From contig JALZWO010000142.1 of NCBI GenBank assembly GCA_023300375.1, forward strand, positions 1 through 59,077: a stretch of DNA of 59,077 nucleotides, written 5' to 3'. Positions 21,228 through 50,199 of this stretch are shown piece by piece (position 1 is the stretch's first letter; each line of letters begins with the position of its first letter). The position numbers were made by a program, and so were the translations under genes. Origin of the DNA: Granulosicoccus sp. GTDB taxonomy: Bacteria; Pseudomonadota; Gammaproteobacteria; Granulosicoccales; Granulosicoccaceae. The notes below the pieces were generated by a model. It was given only the letters and a program-made list of their open reading frames with translations, did no database searches and was not told the origin of the DNA.

Positions 21228-21767
21228 ATGGCTCGAATTACCAAGCCAGTGGCAGCGAAACCTGCCAAAGCTGGAAAAAAGAAGGCTAGCGCCAAAAAAC
21301 GCGCTACAAAAAAGAAAACTGCTGGAAAGAAAAAGGCCGCTTCTAAGAAAAAAGCAGCTTCCAAGAAGAAAGTAAAAAAAGTAGCTTCCAAGAAGAAAGC
21401 ATCCGGTAAGAAAAAAGCGGCTTCCAAGAAGAAAGCAAGCGGCAAAAAGAAGGCTCGCGGTAAGAAGAAAGCTGCTGGCAAAAAGAAGTCAGCTGGCAAG
21501 AAAAAAGCCGCTGGTAAGAAGAAGGCTAGAGGCAAAAAGAAAGCCGCTGGTAAGAAGAAGGCTAGAGGCAAAAAGAAAGCCGCTGGCAAGAAGAAGGCTA
21601 GAGGCAAAAAGAAAGCAGCTGGTAAGAAGAAAGCGGCTGGCAAAAAGAAGTCAGCTGGCAAGAAGAAAGCTGCTGGTAAGAAGAAAGCCGCTGGCAAGAA
21701 GAAAGCTGCTGGTAAGAAAAAAGCCACTGGCAAAAAGAAGGCTAAAGGTAAGAAGAAAGCCTCTTGA
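21228..21767 (+). CDS. Histone H1-like lysine/alanine-rich DNA-binding protein
   Basis: A 179-residue, extremely basic low-complexity protein. After a short lead (MARITKPVAAKPAKAG) it consists of 26 Lys-Lys-Lys blocks; from about residue 53 onward they form an almost perfect hexapeptide array KKKAAG, with the fourth to sixth residues varying (AAG, ARG, SAG, ASG, ATG). This resembles the C-terminal tails of eukaryotic H1 and bacterial H1-like proteins such as AlgP/HC2, which bind DNA without sequence specificity. A GGAG Shine-Dalgarno sequence precedes the ATG. The 18-bp DNA repeat makes copy number likely to vary. It is expected in the nucleoid. Confidence 0.85.
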   Translation: MARITKPVAAKPAKAGKKKASAKKRATKKKTAGKKKAASKKKAASKKKVKKVASKKKASGKKKAASKKKASGKKKARGKKKAAGKKKSAGKKKAAGKKKARGKKKAAGKKKARGKKKAAGKKKARGKKKAAGKKKAAGKKKSAGKKKAAGKKKAAGKKKAAGKKKATGKKKAKGKKKAS

Positions 21768-21859: not shown

Positions 21860-23113
21860 CTATAACGGACCTCGCCCATAATGCTCGAAAGGTATCACTG
21901 TAACGAGCTCACCATCTTCGGCCCCCGTACTGGTGGTTGACAGTTCGATCAGGCAATTGGCTTGTTGTAACGACATTAGTACATGCGAATCTTGTAATCC
22001 TGTTGTTGTCACTACCCAGTGATCATTCGCATCTTTCTCGATCACGGCACGCTGGTACTCGACACGTCCAGGGTTTTTGCTGAGTCTGCCGCTTAGTGGC
22101 AATGTCAGTGAAGGTATGTTTTGACGCGCAGCGCCACACATGAATTCGATAGCAGGCTTGACGAATAGTAGACATGTTATCGCCGCTGAAACCGGATTGC
22201 CGGGTAGTCCGAAGAATGATCTATTGCCATCAAGTTCTCCAAAGGTGAGTGGACGACCTGGCTTCATGGCTACTTTCCACAAATTAACTTTGCCCATGCT
22301 GGATACCACCTGTTTGACATAGTCAGCTTCACCAACCGAAACACCACCGCTGGATATGACAAGCTCAGCACCGTTGGCAGCTGCAAATGCTTCGCGGACA
22401 CCTTGCTCCGTATCCGACACAATACCAAGGTCGATGAGTTCAACGGCCTGGTCTTCTAGCATTGACAGTAACAATGCGCGGTTGGAGTCGTAAATCTGAC
22501 CTTCGGCTAATGGACTGCCCGGATTAACAAGTTCATCACCGGTTGAAAAAATAGCTATTTTCAAGCGAGCTTGTACGCTGATTCGCGCGACACCATTGGC
22601 TGAAAGCAATGCAATTGCAGCTGGGCCTATTCGGTCTCCAGCATGAATTAAAATTGAGCCTGTTTTTATGCCACTGCCAGGTAATCTTATATGTTGTCCA
22701 TTGCGTGGCATCTCATTAACGATGAGTTTGCTTTCAATAACGGTGGCGTTCTCTTGCTGCACAACGGCATCTGCATCGTCAGGCACCTTTGCTCCTGTCA
22801 TGACACGTTGAGCTGTGTAAGCGGCAAGTGTATTTTCGCCAGGATGTCCAGCAAGTGATTTGCCTGAGATCGTTAATTCTTCAGAGCATTCGCTGAGTCT
22901 TAGTGCATACCCATCCATCGCAGAGGCTCTGAATGGTGGAACCTCCACAGTGGCCGTTACGTGTTGCGCAGAATACCGGCCTAGAGAGTCGATAACGGAT
23001 AGAGATTCACACGATGATATTGGTCGCAAGACGCTCAGAATTTGCGCGGTAGCTTGTTCAATCGTCATTGCGTTTGGATCAGCATCATTTATGACGCCCA
23101 CTGGAGGATTCAT
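21860..23113 (-). CDS. moeA: Molybdopterin molybdenumtransferase MoeA (copy 1)
   Basis: A 417-residue enzyme inserting molybdate into adenylylated molybdopterin. Marks are PPFRASAMDGYALR (active-site region), GDRIGPAAIALLSANG, IAIFSTGDELV, the MoCF-fold signature SSGGVSVGEADYVKQV, MKPGRPLTFG and FFGLPGNPVSA. A second MoeA lies in this window at 40050-41336; the two are clearly diverged. This copy is not next to other Mo-cofactor genes and stands alone, convergent with the H1-like gene. Its start at 23113 (MNPPVGVINDADPN) has a poor Shine-Dalgarno sequence. Confidence 0.93.
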   Translation of the reverse strand: MNPPVGVINDADPNAMTIEQATAQILSVLRPISSCESLSVIDSLGRYSAQHVTATVEVPPFRASAMDGYALRLSECSEELTISGKSLAGHPGENTLAAYTAQRVMTGAKVPDDADAVVQQENATVIESKLIVNEMPRNGQHIRLPGSGIKTGSILIHAGDRIGPAAIALLSANGVARISVQARLKIAIFSTGDELVNPGSPLAEGQIYDSNRALLLSMLEDQAVELIDLGIVSDTEQGVREAFAAANGAELVISSGGVSVGEADYVKQVVSSMGKVNLWKVAMKPGRPLTFGELDGNRSFFGLPGNPVSAAITCLLFVKPAIEFMCGAARQNIPSLTLPLSGRLSKNPGRVEYQRAVIEKDANDHWVVTTTGLQDSHVLMSLQQANCLIELSTTSTGAEDGELVTVIPFEHYGRGPL

Positions 23114-23346
23114 ATCAGTATTTGTGTTGAAGGGCGTCTGGAACCGATGCCGAGTGTAGCCATGTATTTGCTATTCAATGAGTTAAGCACTCAGGAGAAT
23201 TGAGCGTGCTGTCCATGCTTTTGGGTCGAGGAAGCCTATTTACTAATACAAAGATGAACTAATTTACAAGATTCAATGGTTAAAATCATTAATTTAAGTA
23301 CTTCATTTTTGTGAATGAGAACGATCTGACCATTCTCGCATTTGCC

Positions 23347-23472
23347 AAAACAAGCAAAACAAGCAAAACAAGCAAAACAAGCAAAACAAGCAAAACGAGC
23401 AAAACGAGCAAAACGAGCAAAACGAGCAAAACGAGCAAAACGAGCAAAACGAGCAAAACGAGCAAAACGAGC
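23347..23472. repeat. 9-bp minisatellite, 14 exact units
   Basis: Fourteen tandem 9-base units: five AAAACAAGC copies followed by nine AAAACGAGC copies, with no other variation. The single A-to-G difference changes between blocks, not at random, showing unit-by-unit expansion. In the plus frame shared with dsbC it reads as Lys-Thr-Ser repeats; all frames are open because 9 is a multiple of 3. I treat it as non-coding DNA upstream of the DsbC-like gene, but an in-frame GTG at 23311 would allow translation through it. Confidence 0.95.
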
Positions 23473-23625
23473 AAATATAGCGTGAGTGATGTCGGCATAT
23501 ACCTTGCTGCAGAGCAGGGTTCTACAAAAATTGCTGCTCAAGTACATAAATTGTTGGCACAGACAGACGCAAAACATCATTTTGAACTTTATAATGAACC
23601 CTCAGACTATATTGGATGTCACCGT

Positions 23626-24612
23626 ATGAACGACCGGTCAATGAGCACAAAAAAAGTAATACCGATATTTACATTAGTTATCGCCTCCGTTGTAACGCTT
23701 ACGATTGCCGGCTACATCAAGCACAACCAGGCTGATGATGCCGTTGCCGAATCACCCAACGATCAAACACCTGTGGTGATTCAGTCAGAGCCACCGGTAG
23801 TTAACGCAGAACTCGATTCAGCAAGCAAGCCTGCAGTAGCTGAGACCGAAGTACCTGCCTCGGGGCCGGAGGCTAATGGAGCTGATGCTGCCGTTGTACA
23901 GGAAGTGGCGCAAGCAGCCAATTCACCGCAAGACTCTGAAGCTCTTGGTGAAGAAATCATTGAAAAACTCCGTGCTCGATTACCGCAATTTAATTTTGGT
24001 TCTGTCGTTGAAACAAGCGTCGCGGGCTTGTATCAGATTGAGAATGGGGGTCGAATCTTGTACGTGAATGAGACCGCTGACTACATTATCGATGGCTCAT
24101 TAATTAGAGTCGAAGACAGAGCCAATCTGACTGACTCAGCTCTTGGTCTTCTTCATGTGGGGCTAATTGCTGGTGTTGATGAAAAAGATATGCTGATCTA
24201 TGAGCCCGACGAGCCCTCTGATCGATCTATTACGGTATTCACAGATATTAGCTGTGGATACTGTCGTCTTTTACACGAGCAAATTGACGAACTACTCGAA
24301 TCAGGCCTGAGAGTTCGCTATCTACTATACCCACGAGCTGGGCTAGGTACACAAGCGCACAAGGATTTGGAGAGCGTATGGTGCGCAGACGACCCACAAG
24401 AGGCCATGACCAATGCCAAATCAGGCGGGGTTATTGAGCAGCTATCATGCGACAATCCGATAGAGCAACATGTAGCGCTTGCCAGTCAGGTTGGCTTACG
24501 TGGGACTCCGCTTATTTATACAGACAGTGGCGAGCAAATTCCGGGTTACAGGGAAGCAAAAGCGTTAGCAGAACTTGTTCTTAGCAATGAACCCCTAAGC
24601 GCATCTAATTGA
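23626..24612 (+). CDS. Membrane-anchored DsbC-like disulfide isomerase
   Basis: A 328-residue protein. An N-terminal membrane helix (about residues 11-28) is followed by a Pro/Ala/Glu-rich linker to about 105. A DsbC-type dimerisation domain (LPQFNFGSVVETSVAGLYQI, with ILYVNETADYIIDG) precedes a thioredoxin-fold domain with catalytic CGYC at 210-213. A second Cys pair (WCADDP and LSCDNP) and the cis-proline loop RGTPLIY match DsbC. It should act in the periplasm, kept reduced by DsbD. The start may be ATG 23626 or ATG 23641. The same frame is open to GTG 23311 through the minisatellite, which would add a 105-residue cytoplasmic tail. Confidence 0.88.
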   Translation: MNDRSMSTKKVIPIFTLVIASVVTLTIAGYIKHNQADDAVAESPNDQTPVVIQSEPPVVNAELDSASKPAVAETEVPASGPEANGADAAVVQEVAQAANSPQDSEALGEEIIEKLRARLPQFNFGSVVETSVAGLYQIENGGRILYVNETADYIIDGSLIRVEDRANLTDSALGLLHVGLIAGVDEKDMLIYEPDEPSDRSITVFTDISCGYCRLLHEQIDELLESGLRVRYLLYPRAGLGTQAHKDLESVWCADDPQEAMTNAKSGGVIEQLSCDNPIEQHVALASQVGLRGTPLIYTDSGEQIPGYREAKALAELVLSNEPLSASN

Positions 24613-24753
24613 CAATTGCGATTGAATGCTCCGCTAGATGATTCCTTCGTGGTTACGACGCATCACTGAGATCCGAACTGTTATTGACTGATACACGTAA
24701 ATTAAGAAGCGTTTCGGCATCTGAGCATTTTGTCGATCATCGCAAGATTACTG

Positions 24754-24823
24754 TCTCTAGATAACTATCTCTAGACAACTATCTCTAAATAACTATCTCT
24801 AAATAACTATGTCTAGATAACTA
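24754..24823. repeat. 14-bp tandem repeat, five units, upstream of the TPR gene
   Basis: Five contiguous 14-base units based on TCTCTAGATAACTA, each differing by zero to two bases. The last unit ends on the A of an ATG at 24823; the more likely gene start is the ATG at 24838. The repeat occupies the place of the promoter/leader of the TPR gene. The preceding 24613-24753 shows nothing recognisable. Confidence 0.9.
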
Positions 24824-24837
24824 TGGGTCCCAGTGTT

Positions 24838-25392
24838 ATGCCAAAACTATCGATTCTAGTTGTTATGTCGATCCTTTTTGGAGCTTGTAGCGCGCTTGCA
24901 AGCGCGGATCAAACTTCTGAACAACTGCCTGGTCTATTTGATCAACTTCAGGCTAGTTCCGATCCAATAGAAGCGGGGCGTTTGGAAAGTCAGATTTGGC
25001 AGTACTGGTTGGAGGCCCCCGATGCGGCGTCTAACTCGCAGATGGTACGGATTGGCCGAGCGATGGCTGGAGCAGAGCTTGCTGTTGCATTGAACTTGGC
25101 TGATCAGTTAGTAGATAGCTACCCCAACTATGCTGAAGCGTGGAATAAAAGAGCCACGATTCATTATTTGATGGGTGACAACACAGCTTCGGTGGCGGAT
25201 ATCCGCGAAACAGTGGCTTTAGAACCTAGGCACTTTGGCGCAATCTCTGGTCTTGGCTTGATTTTTATGCGTGAAAAAAACTTGGATGCAGCGCTTGATG
25301 CTTTCGAAAAGGTACTTGATATCAACCCAGCGTCGGTCAGCGCACAACGTAGCGTCGCTCGATTGCGCGCGGAGATGGGGCGCGAAATCTAA
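24838..25392 (+). CDS. Exported TPR-repeat protein
   Basis: A 184-residue protein from ATG 24838. The N-terminus MPKLSILVVMSILFGAC is a signal peptide with a lipobox-like FGAC, or cleavage after ALASA; it is therefore periplasmic or lipid-anchored. Residues about 75-180 hold three tetratricopeptide-like helix pairs: a first with SYPNYAEAWNKRATIHYLMGD, a second with EPRHFGAISGLGLIFMREKN, and a third with DINPASVSAQRSVARLRAE. An alternative start at 24823 adds MGPSV. The next gene overlaps its 3' end in another frame. Partner and role are unknown; TPR domains bind proteins. Confidence 0.8.
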   Translation: MPKLSILVVMSILFGACSALASADQTSEQLPGLFDQLQASSDPIEAGRLESQIWQYWLEAPDAASNSQMVRIGRAMAGAELAVALNLADQLVDSYPNYAEAWNKRATIHYLMGDNTASVADIRETVALEPRHFGAISGLGLIFMREKNLDAALDAFEKVLDINPASVSAQRSVARLRAEMGREI

Positions 25393-26392
25393 GCTTCAGG
25401 CTGGGATCTTTTTGCTCTGTTGCTGTGGGGCAGCTCTTGCGGAACAAACAGACGACGCCGTATTTTTTCAGCAGAATCCCCAACACGTGTTTAACTCTGT
25501 ATTTGGAGTGCCTGCACCTGCATCCCGAATTGTGCAAGGCATAGAATGGCAGTTTAGTCTGGAACATTCGAATCAATTCGCTGGAGGTCGCACAGCCGAT
25601 GAGGTGCTTGTGATTGATGGTGAAAGCTCAGTGTTTAGAATCAGTCACAAGCAACGGTTATCTGCTTGTTGGCAAGCTGAAGCCGTGGTGCCGCTCATTG
25701 CCTACGATGGCGGTGTTTTTGATCAGGCCATAGATGACTTTCATCAGTTTTTCGGCACACCCGATGGCAATCGTGACGCATCACCTTTTGATGCACTCAC
25801 GTTTCAATACACGAATGCTCGTGGGGAGACTCAAAATATTGAAACACCTCAAAGTGGTATTGGTGATGTTCAGCTGACTCTTCAGCGTGCTCTAGGCTGT
25901 TTTGCTACCGCCGATTCAACCAAAGCTGAGTCTATTGTCAGATTGGGTATCAAGCTGCCTACGGGTGATGCGGATGAATTGCGAGGTAGTGGGGAAGTAG
26001 ATGTGTTTGCAGATTGGCAATCAGGCATCAAGACACTGCGTAAGCGCTGGTATGGAGCCGCCTCATTGGGTGCGGCCTACCTTGGCGATACTGAGATTTT
26101 TTCTAATCAGAGACGATCAGCACTCTATGGTTCTGTTGGCACACAGTTCGCAATAAATCATAAGTGGCGTTTTATCACTCAGCTCGATGCACATACCGCT
26201 CTCTATGATAGCGCCCTGCGTGAACTGGGCGATCCAGCAATCAACTTGGGGGTTGGATTTCGATACTTGGCAGGTCAATCTTATTCGCTTGAGTTCTCGA
26301 TCAGCGAAGATATTGCTATCGATACCACGCCCGATATCGTTGCTCGATTAGCGCTGTCCTACCGACCATCCTTGGTCAGTCGACGGCGTTAG
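25316..26392 (+). CDS. DUF3187-like outer-membrane barrel protein, start unclear
   Basis: The mature protein begins after a signal-like segment (LQAGIFLLCCCGAALA, cleaved before EQTDD) and continues as about 330 residues rich in alternating strands, such as RLGIKLPTGDADELRGSGEVDVFADWQSG, RKRWYGAASLGAAYLGD, and a terminal LALSYRPS. This fits the DUF3187 family of predicted outer-membrane barrels. No ATG or GTG lies in frame between 25299 and the signal sequence; a TTG at 25316 with AAGG upstream is used here, and GTG 25271, ATG 25286 or ATG 25298 are alternatives, all inside the TPR gene. Removing one G from the GGGG at 25377-25380 would place ATG 25375 in frame as MGAKSKLQAG. Confidence 0.65.
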   Translation: MISTQRRSAHNVASLDCARRWGAKSKLQAGIFLLCCCGAALAEQTDDAVFFQQNPQHVFNSVFGVPAPASRIVQGIEWQFSLEHSNQFAGGRTADEVLVIDGESSVFRISHKQRLSACWQAEAVVPLIAYDGGVFDQAIDDFHQFFGTPDGNRDASPFDALTFQYTNARGETQNIETPQSGIGDVQLTLQRALGCFATADSTKAESIVRLGIKLPTGDADELRGSGEVDVFADWQSGIKTLRKRWYGAASLGAAYLGDTEIFSNQRRSALYGSVGTQFAINHKWRFITQLDAHTALYDSALRELGDPAINLGVGFRYLAGQSYSLEFSISEDIAIDTTPDIVARLALSYRPSLVSRRR

Positions 26393-50089: not shown

Positions 50090-50199
50090 TTAGTCTTTAG
50101 CGATTTACGGCAAACGGCAAACGGCAAACGGCGTGTGGCGTGCGGTGAACTTGTTTGATAGTTGATAAACTACCCGCCCCCTATGCTGACGTTGTGCTA

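Follow-up and report, generated by a model that had tools for sequence, protein, structure and literature searches.

A 9-bp tandem array between moeA and dsbC in a Granulosicoccus genome, very probably a non-coding, lineage-specific repeat of the VNTR type

The intergenic region between moeA (minus strand) and a divergently transcribed DsbC-type disulfide isomerase gene (plus strand) of this Granulosicoccus genome holds a tandem array of 9-bp units. This array is very probably a young, lineage-specific and non-coding repeat of the VNTR type, which would have grown by slippage or recombination and is most likely neutral. The features on which the argument draws are given below, with positions in the window, that is, the whole stretch of 59,077 nucleotides that was analysed.

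21860 to 23113, minus strand: moeA (Pfam MoeA_N, MoCF_biosynth and MoeA_C), in the same order as in the sister genome
23252 to 23346, no strand: left flank, largely without an aligned counterpart in the sister (MAFFT), apart from a weak piece at about 23295-23315
23347 to 23472, no strand: 9-bp tandem array, from the sequence, TRF and pattern matches
23347 to 23391: first block of the array, five copies of AAAACAAGC
23392 to 23472: second block of the array, nine copies of AAAACGAGC
23493 to 23625, plus strand: block upstream of dsbC that can be aligned with the sister (34 mismatches at 132 aligned sites, one gap column)
23626 to 24612, plus strand: DsbC-type disulfide isomerase gene in its most likely extent, from an ATG common to the sister
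24745 to 24824, no strand: second array, 5.7 copies of the 14-bp unit AGATAACTATCTCT (TRF), between dsbC and a TPR gene

By direct reading, positions 23347-23472 consist of 14 perfect 9-bp units arranged head-to-tail, in a single draft assembly of 247 contigs. The original prediction of 14 units of equal length that switch only once, from a block of five to a block of nine, is borne out both by this reading and by TRF, which reports an array at 23346-23475 with a period of 9, 14.4 copies, 99% matches and a score of 225. In 50 mononucleotide shuffles of the complete window, the TRF score never rose above 59. The two versions of the unit differ by an A or a G at position 6, and a single switch among five A-units and nine G-units placed in random order has a probability of 2/2002, or 0.001. 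With 14.4 near-identical copies joined head-to-tail, the array has the form of a bacterial VNTR. All six frames are open through it, as was also predicted from the 9-bp multiples, and the openness of any one frame across the array is therefore automatic.

The closest relative by DsbC-type protein, here called the sister (G008), encodes a homologue that is 73% identical across query residues 35-378 (E 2.2e-155); such proteins were matched in 46 of the 57 genomes searched, the present one included. The sister keeps the gene order moeA, dsbC and TPR gene, and window positions 21867-23133, 23493-24701 and 24818-26150 align to it in that order. The 9-bp array was not found in this syntenic locus, whether by MAFFT or in the sister sequence itself: it falls in a gap of the alignment, except for a stretch opposite its last unit, which reads ATAATGACT in the sister. 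The left flank is likewise gapped over about 75 bp (23252-23294 and 23316-23346), and the array is separated from the dsbC ATG by the 133 bp that can be aligned (23493-23625). Because a sister with 73% protein identity is distant, the age of the array is only loosely bounded, and its loss in the sister, instead of a gain in this lineage, is possible.

On the long frame that runs into the neighbouring gene, Pfam identifies DsbC_N (PF10411; 2.9e-15) and Thioredoxin_2 (PF13098; 4.3e-17), and the translation contains CGYC. The gene product is thus predicted to have the DsbC/DsbG-type arrangement, in which DsbC_N is followed by a thioredoxin fold with a CXXC motif. The 14-bp array beyond this gene is near-palindromic (AGATA-AC-TATCT) and runs into the ATG listed for the TPR gene (24823). 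Elsewhere in the window, positions 21228-21767 hold a lysine/alanine-rich repetitive frame (KKKAAGKKKA...) with no Pfam match, which we take to be histone-H1-like in appearance, and the sister has a repeat similar in kind (L111, 2200-2572). TRF also lists ACGGCAA in 3.7 copies with 100% matches at 50107-50132.

Within the genus, two tandem units occur in one of 27 genomes, and there solely at the present locus. The set extends to drafts of as little as 63% completeness; among genomes that are 90% or more complete with no more than 5% contamination, a standard that 15 of the 26 others reach, the count is one in 16. The left flank (23114-23346), used as a query against the 27 genomes at E values up to 0.01, matched only itself, and a mobile element carrying the array was rejected on this ground. 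In a collection of species-level genomes, from which records of the present genome were possibly left out, three units were found in 17 stretches from several phyla. All blastn matches that these stretches make to the window are confined to the array (within 23343-23477), and the unit therefore seems, from such sequence matches, to arise repeatedly. One of the 17, from a Polynucleobacter MAG (L051), also encodes a DsbC relative; its array lies inside another long open frame, 3' of the DsbC-relative gene, and the association was taken as coincidence. A stretch from a Thermoguttaceae MAG (L041, 1734-1958) carries 25 copies of a like 9-bp unit (GCAAAACGA) and matches the window nowhere but in the array.

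The array is also of a kind that is common in the present genome. Beyond the window, 601 kb of this genome (G000) were sampled in 40 stretches, and compared with 303 kb of the sister (20 stretches, with a third of the sequence coming from its dsbC contig), 400 kb of another genus genome (G023; 20 stretches) and 350 kb of Escherichia coli K-12 (7 stretches), which serves as one distant control. The choice of stretches followed contig number or position and included many contig starts, so that the sample is not random. Arrays with a TRF score of at least 100 and a unit of up to 22 bp numbered 10 in the 601 kb (12 in 660 kb with the window), as against two in the sister, one in G023 and none in E. 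coli K-12. With all unit lengths counted at the same score, there were 16 in the present genome (19 with the window), nine in the sister, four in G023 and one in E. coli; by this count the array density of the sister equals that of the present genome, and the excess here is one of short units, in small numbers. Among the 12 short-unit arrays, seven lack a stop-to-stop frame of 100 codons that covers 80% or more of the array.

At each of the four array loci compared with the sister, the present one included, the array is not in the sister. For the 14-bp array beside dsbC, TRF found none in the sister locus (L010) at a score of 40 or more. The 7-bp array GTTCACT (11.3 copies) has no TRF counterpart in the 286-bp stretch between two aligned pieces in the sister; CTGGTT in 4.2 copies stands at another place in the same sister locus. 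A 15-bp array corresponds to a gap in the base-level alignment. A further 9-bp array, AAAACAAAC in 6.6 copies, stands directly before the likely ATG of another gene on contig 90 of the present genome (L076, 3532-3590). Three copies of the pattern AAAACRARC occur in only two places in the 27 genomes, namely this array and the one between moeA and dsbC. A protein search with the frame at L076 gave matches in four of four genomes, its own included; as the best match in the sister is only 33% identical, the frame probably lacks a counterpart there on sequence grounds, and the matching loci from G023 and G026 have no TRF array at a score of 40 or more. Loss of mismatch repair as a cause of the many arrays is unsupported, with the MutS N-terminal domain present in all 27 genus genomes. 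A broader proposal would have this lineage form short-unit arrays in non-coding DNA at an unusual rate, each one local and absent from the sister, so that spacing at moeA-dsbC and between other genes changes fast and some arrays tune their neighbours; we regard it as decidedly unlikely.

The plus frame had been claimed to run without a stop into the DsbC-like gene, and it does so over 433 aa, from a GTG at 23311 to the stop codon of dsbC (24612). If dsbC started at this GTG, the array would encode a Lys-Thr-Ser tail that could vary in length, and a unit length that is a multiple of 3 suits such a reading. The open frame here, at 439 codons, also exceeds that of any other among the matches listed (at most 373), and translation in this one species is formally possible. 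The tail is nevertheless not supported by comparison with the sister, where the frame of the common ATG (23626) meets a TAG three codons upstream and a TAA at 26, 51 and 58 codons upstream, and where alignment of the block just before the ATG requires a 1-nt deletion. Mismatches to the sister in that block (23493-23625) are spread evenly over the three codon positions (first to third), at 11, 11 and 12 of 44 each with one gap column. They number 23 of 96, 25 of 98 and 54 of 97 over the N-terminus and linker (23626-23955; 39 gap columns), and 30, 14 and 96 of 218 each over the DsbC part (23956-24609). The third-position excess that marks coding sequence is thus seen after 23626 and absent before it, from which dsbC most likely starts at 23626. 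In this comparison with one relative, the frame joining the array to the gene is not conserved as coding. No ribosome-binding sequence was seen by eye before 23311, and the stop-free frame does not speak for the tail, its openness across such a unit being automatic. A coding tail was accordingly rejected and is held to be extremely improbable. The main lesson is a corrective one: where a repeat unit leaves all six frames open, an open frame running through it does not count as evidence for coding.

A position between two divergently transcribed genes also raises the prospect of a cis-regulatory element, in which repeated protein sites or an A-tract module would let copy number tune the transcription of dsbC or moeA. 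Repeats in promoters change expression in other bacteria, as described for nadA, porA and hifA/hifB in a review (PMC3899988), and the similar array at L076 ends just before the likely ATG of its gene. Set against this are the lack of the array in the sister and of its unit pattern in all 26 other genus genomes, and its place upstream of a 133-bp leader that can be aligned between the two. A 9-bp period also does not keep phase with the helical repeat. A promoter scan of 23100-25000 gave a single site, on the minus strand (24113-24085), and none on the plus strand; shuffles average 3.5 sites. Candidate motifs noted by eye include GGATG at 23614-23618 and TATAAT at 23590-23595 (TATACT in the sister); the latter has no good partner hexamer, again by eye, and is without backing from the scan. 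An effect of array copy number on promoter spacing is unlikely, and the cis-regulatory reading as a whole very unlikely, although the array might conceivably act on expression from its upstream position. The array was also considered as an RNA element and rejected, since it folds no better than shuffles (200 of 200 and 199 of 200, for the two strands, fold at least as well). Rfam at E values up to 1 returned a single match, sR41 at 24172-24224, with 17.6 bits against a gathering score of 54.

The copy number, or the clean order of the two blocks, might instead be partly an artefact of assembly, for this is a draft genome in 247 contigs, one of which (contig 170) opens at its first base with a perfect array of AATCTG in 16.5 copies (L084, 1-99). 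The assembly may break at arrays such as that one, and a pure block of 81 bp is hard for short k-mers. The present array, however, is just 126-130 bp long, and its contig extends some 23 kb before it and 35 kb beyond it, which leaves such an artefact unlikely.

Under the non-coding VNTR-type reading, an A-rich seed would have been expanded into the array through slippage during replication or through unequal recombination. Of the two versions of the unit (A or G at position 6), one would have arisen from the other and then multiplied as a block; the block order fits one change followed by block spread of one version, in either direction. The recent slippage expansion originally proposed is upheld as something we infer from near-identical units in two blocks, with no array in the sister and no two such units in tandem in the 26 other genus genomes. 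The array lies upstream of that portion of the dsbC leader which can be aligned to the sister, and is most likely neutral.

Among known systems, the promoter repeats of phase-variable genes are one point of comparison, exemplified in PMC3899988 by the TAAA repeats of Neisseria nadA and the TA repeats of Haemophilus hifA/hifB. The present array resembles these in lying upstream of a gene, and the hif repeat is also placed between two divergent genes. Unlike them, it has no promoter element found at the array, it is followed by a leader alignable with the sister, and its neighbours are moeA and dsbC in place of genes for surface structures. A minisatellite within a MITE of Porphyromonas gingivalis, as reported in PMC4596501, is comparable as a tandem array in a repetitive intergenic setting. 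It differs from the present case, where a search of the 27 genus genomes with the flank (23114-23346) returned no match but the query itself. The bacterial VNTR loci on which MLVA typing relies are built of short, near-identical units placed head-to-tail. The array between moeA and dsbC shares this head-to-tail build, and is itself intergenic, lineage-specific and known from one genome; together with the other short arrays of this genome, it would provide a handy set of strain markers if copy number proves variable.
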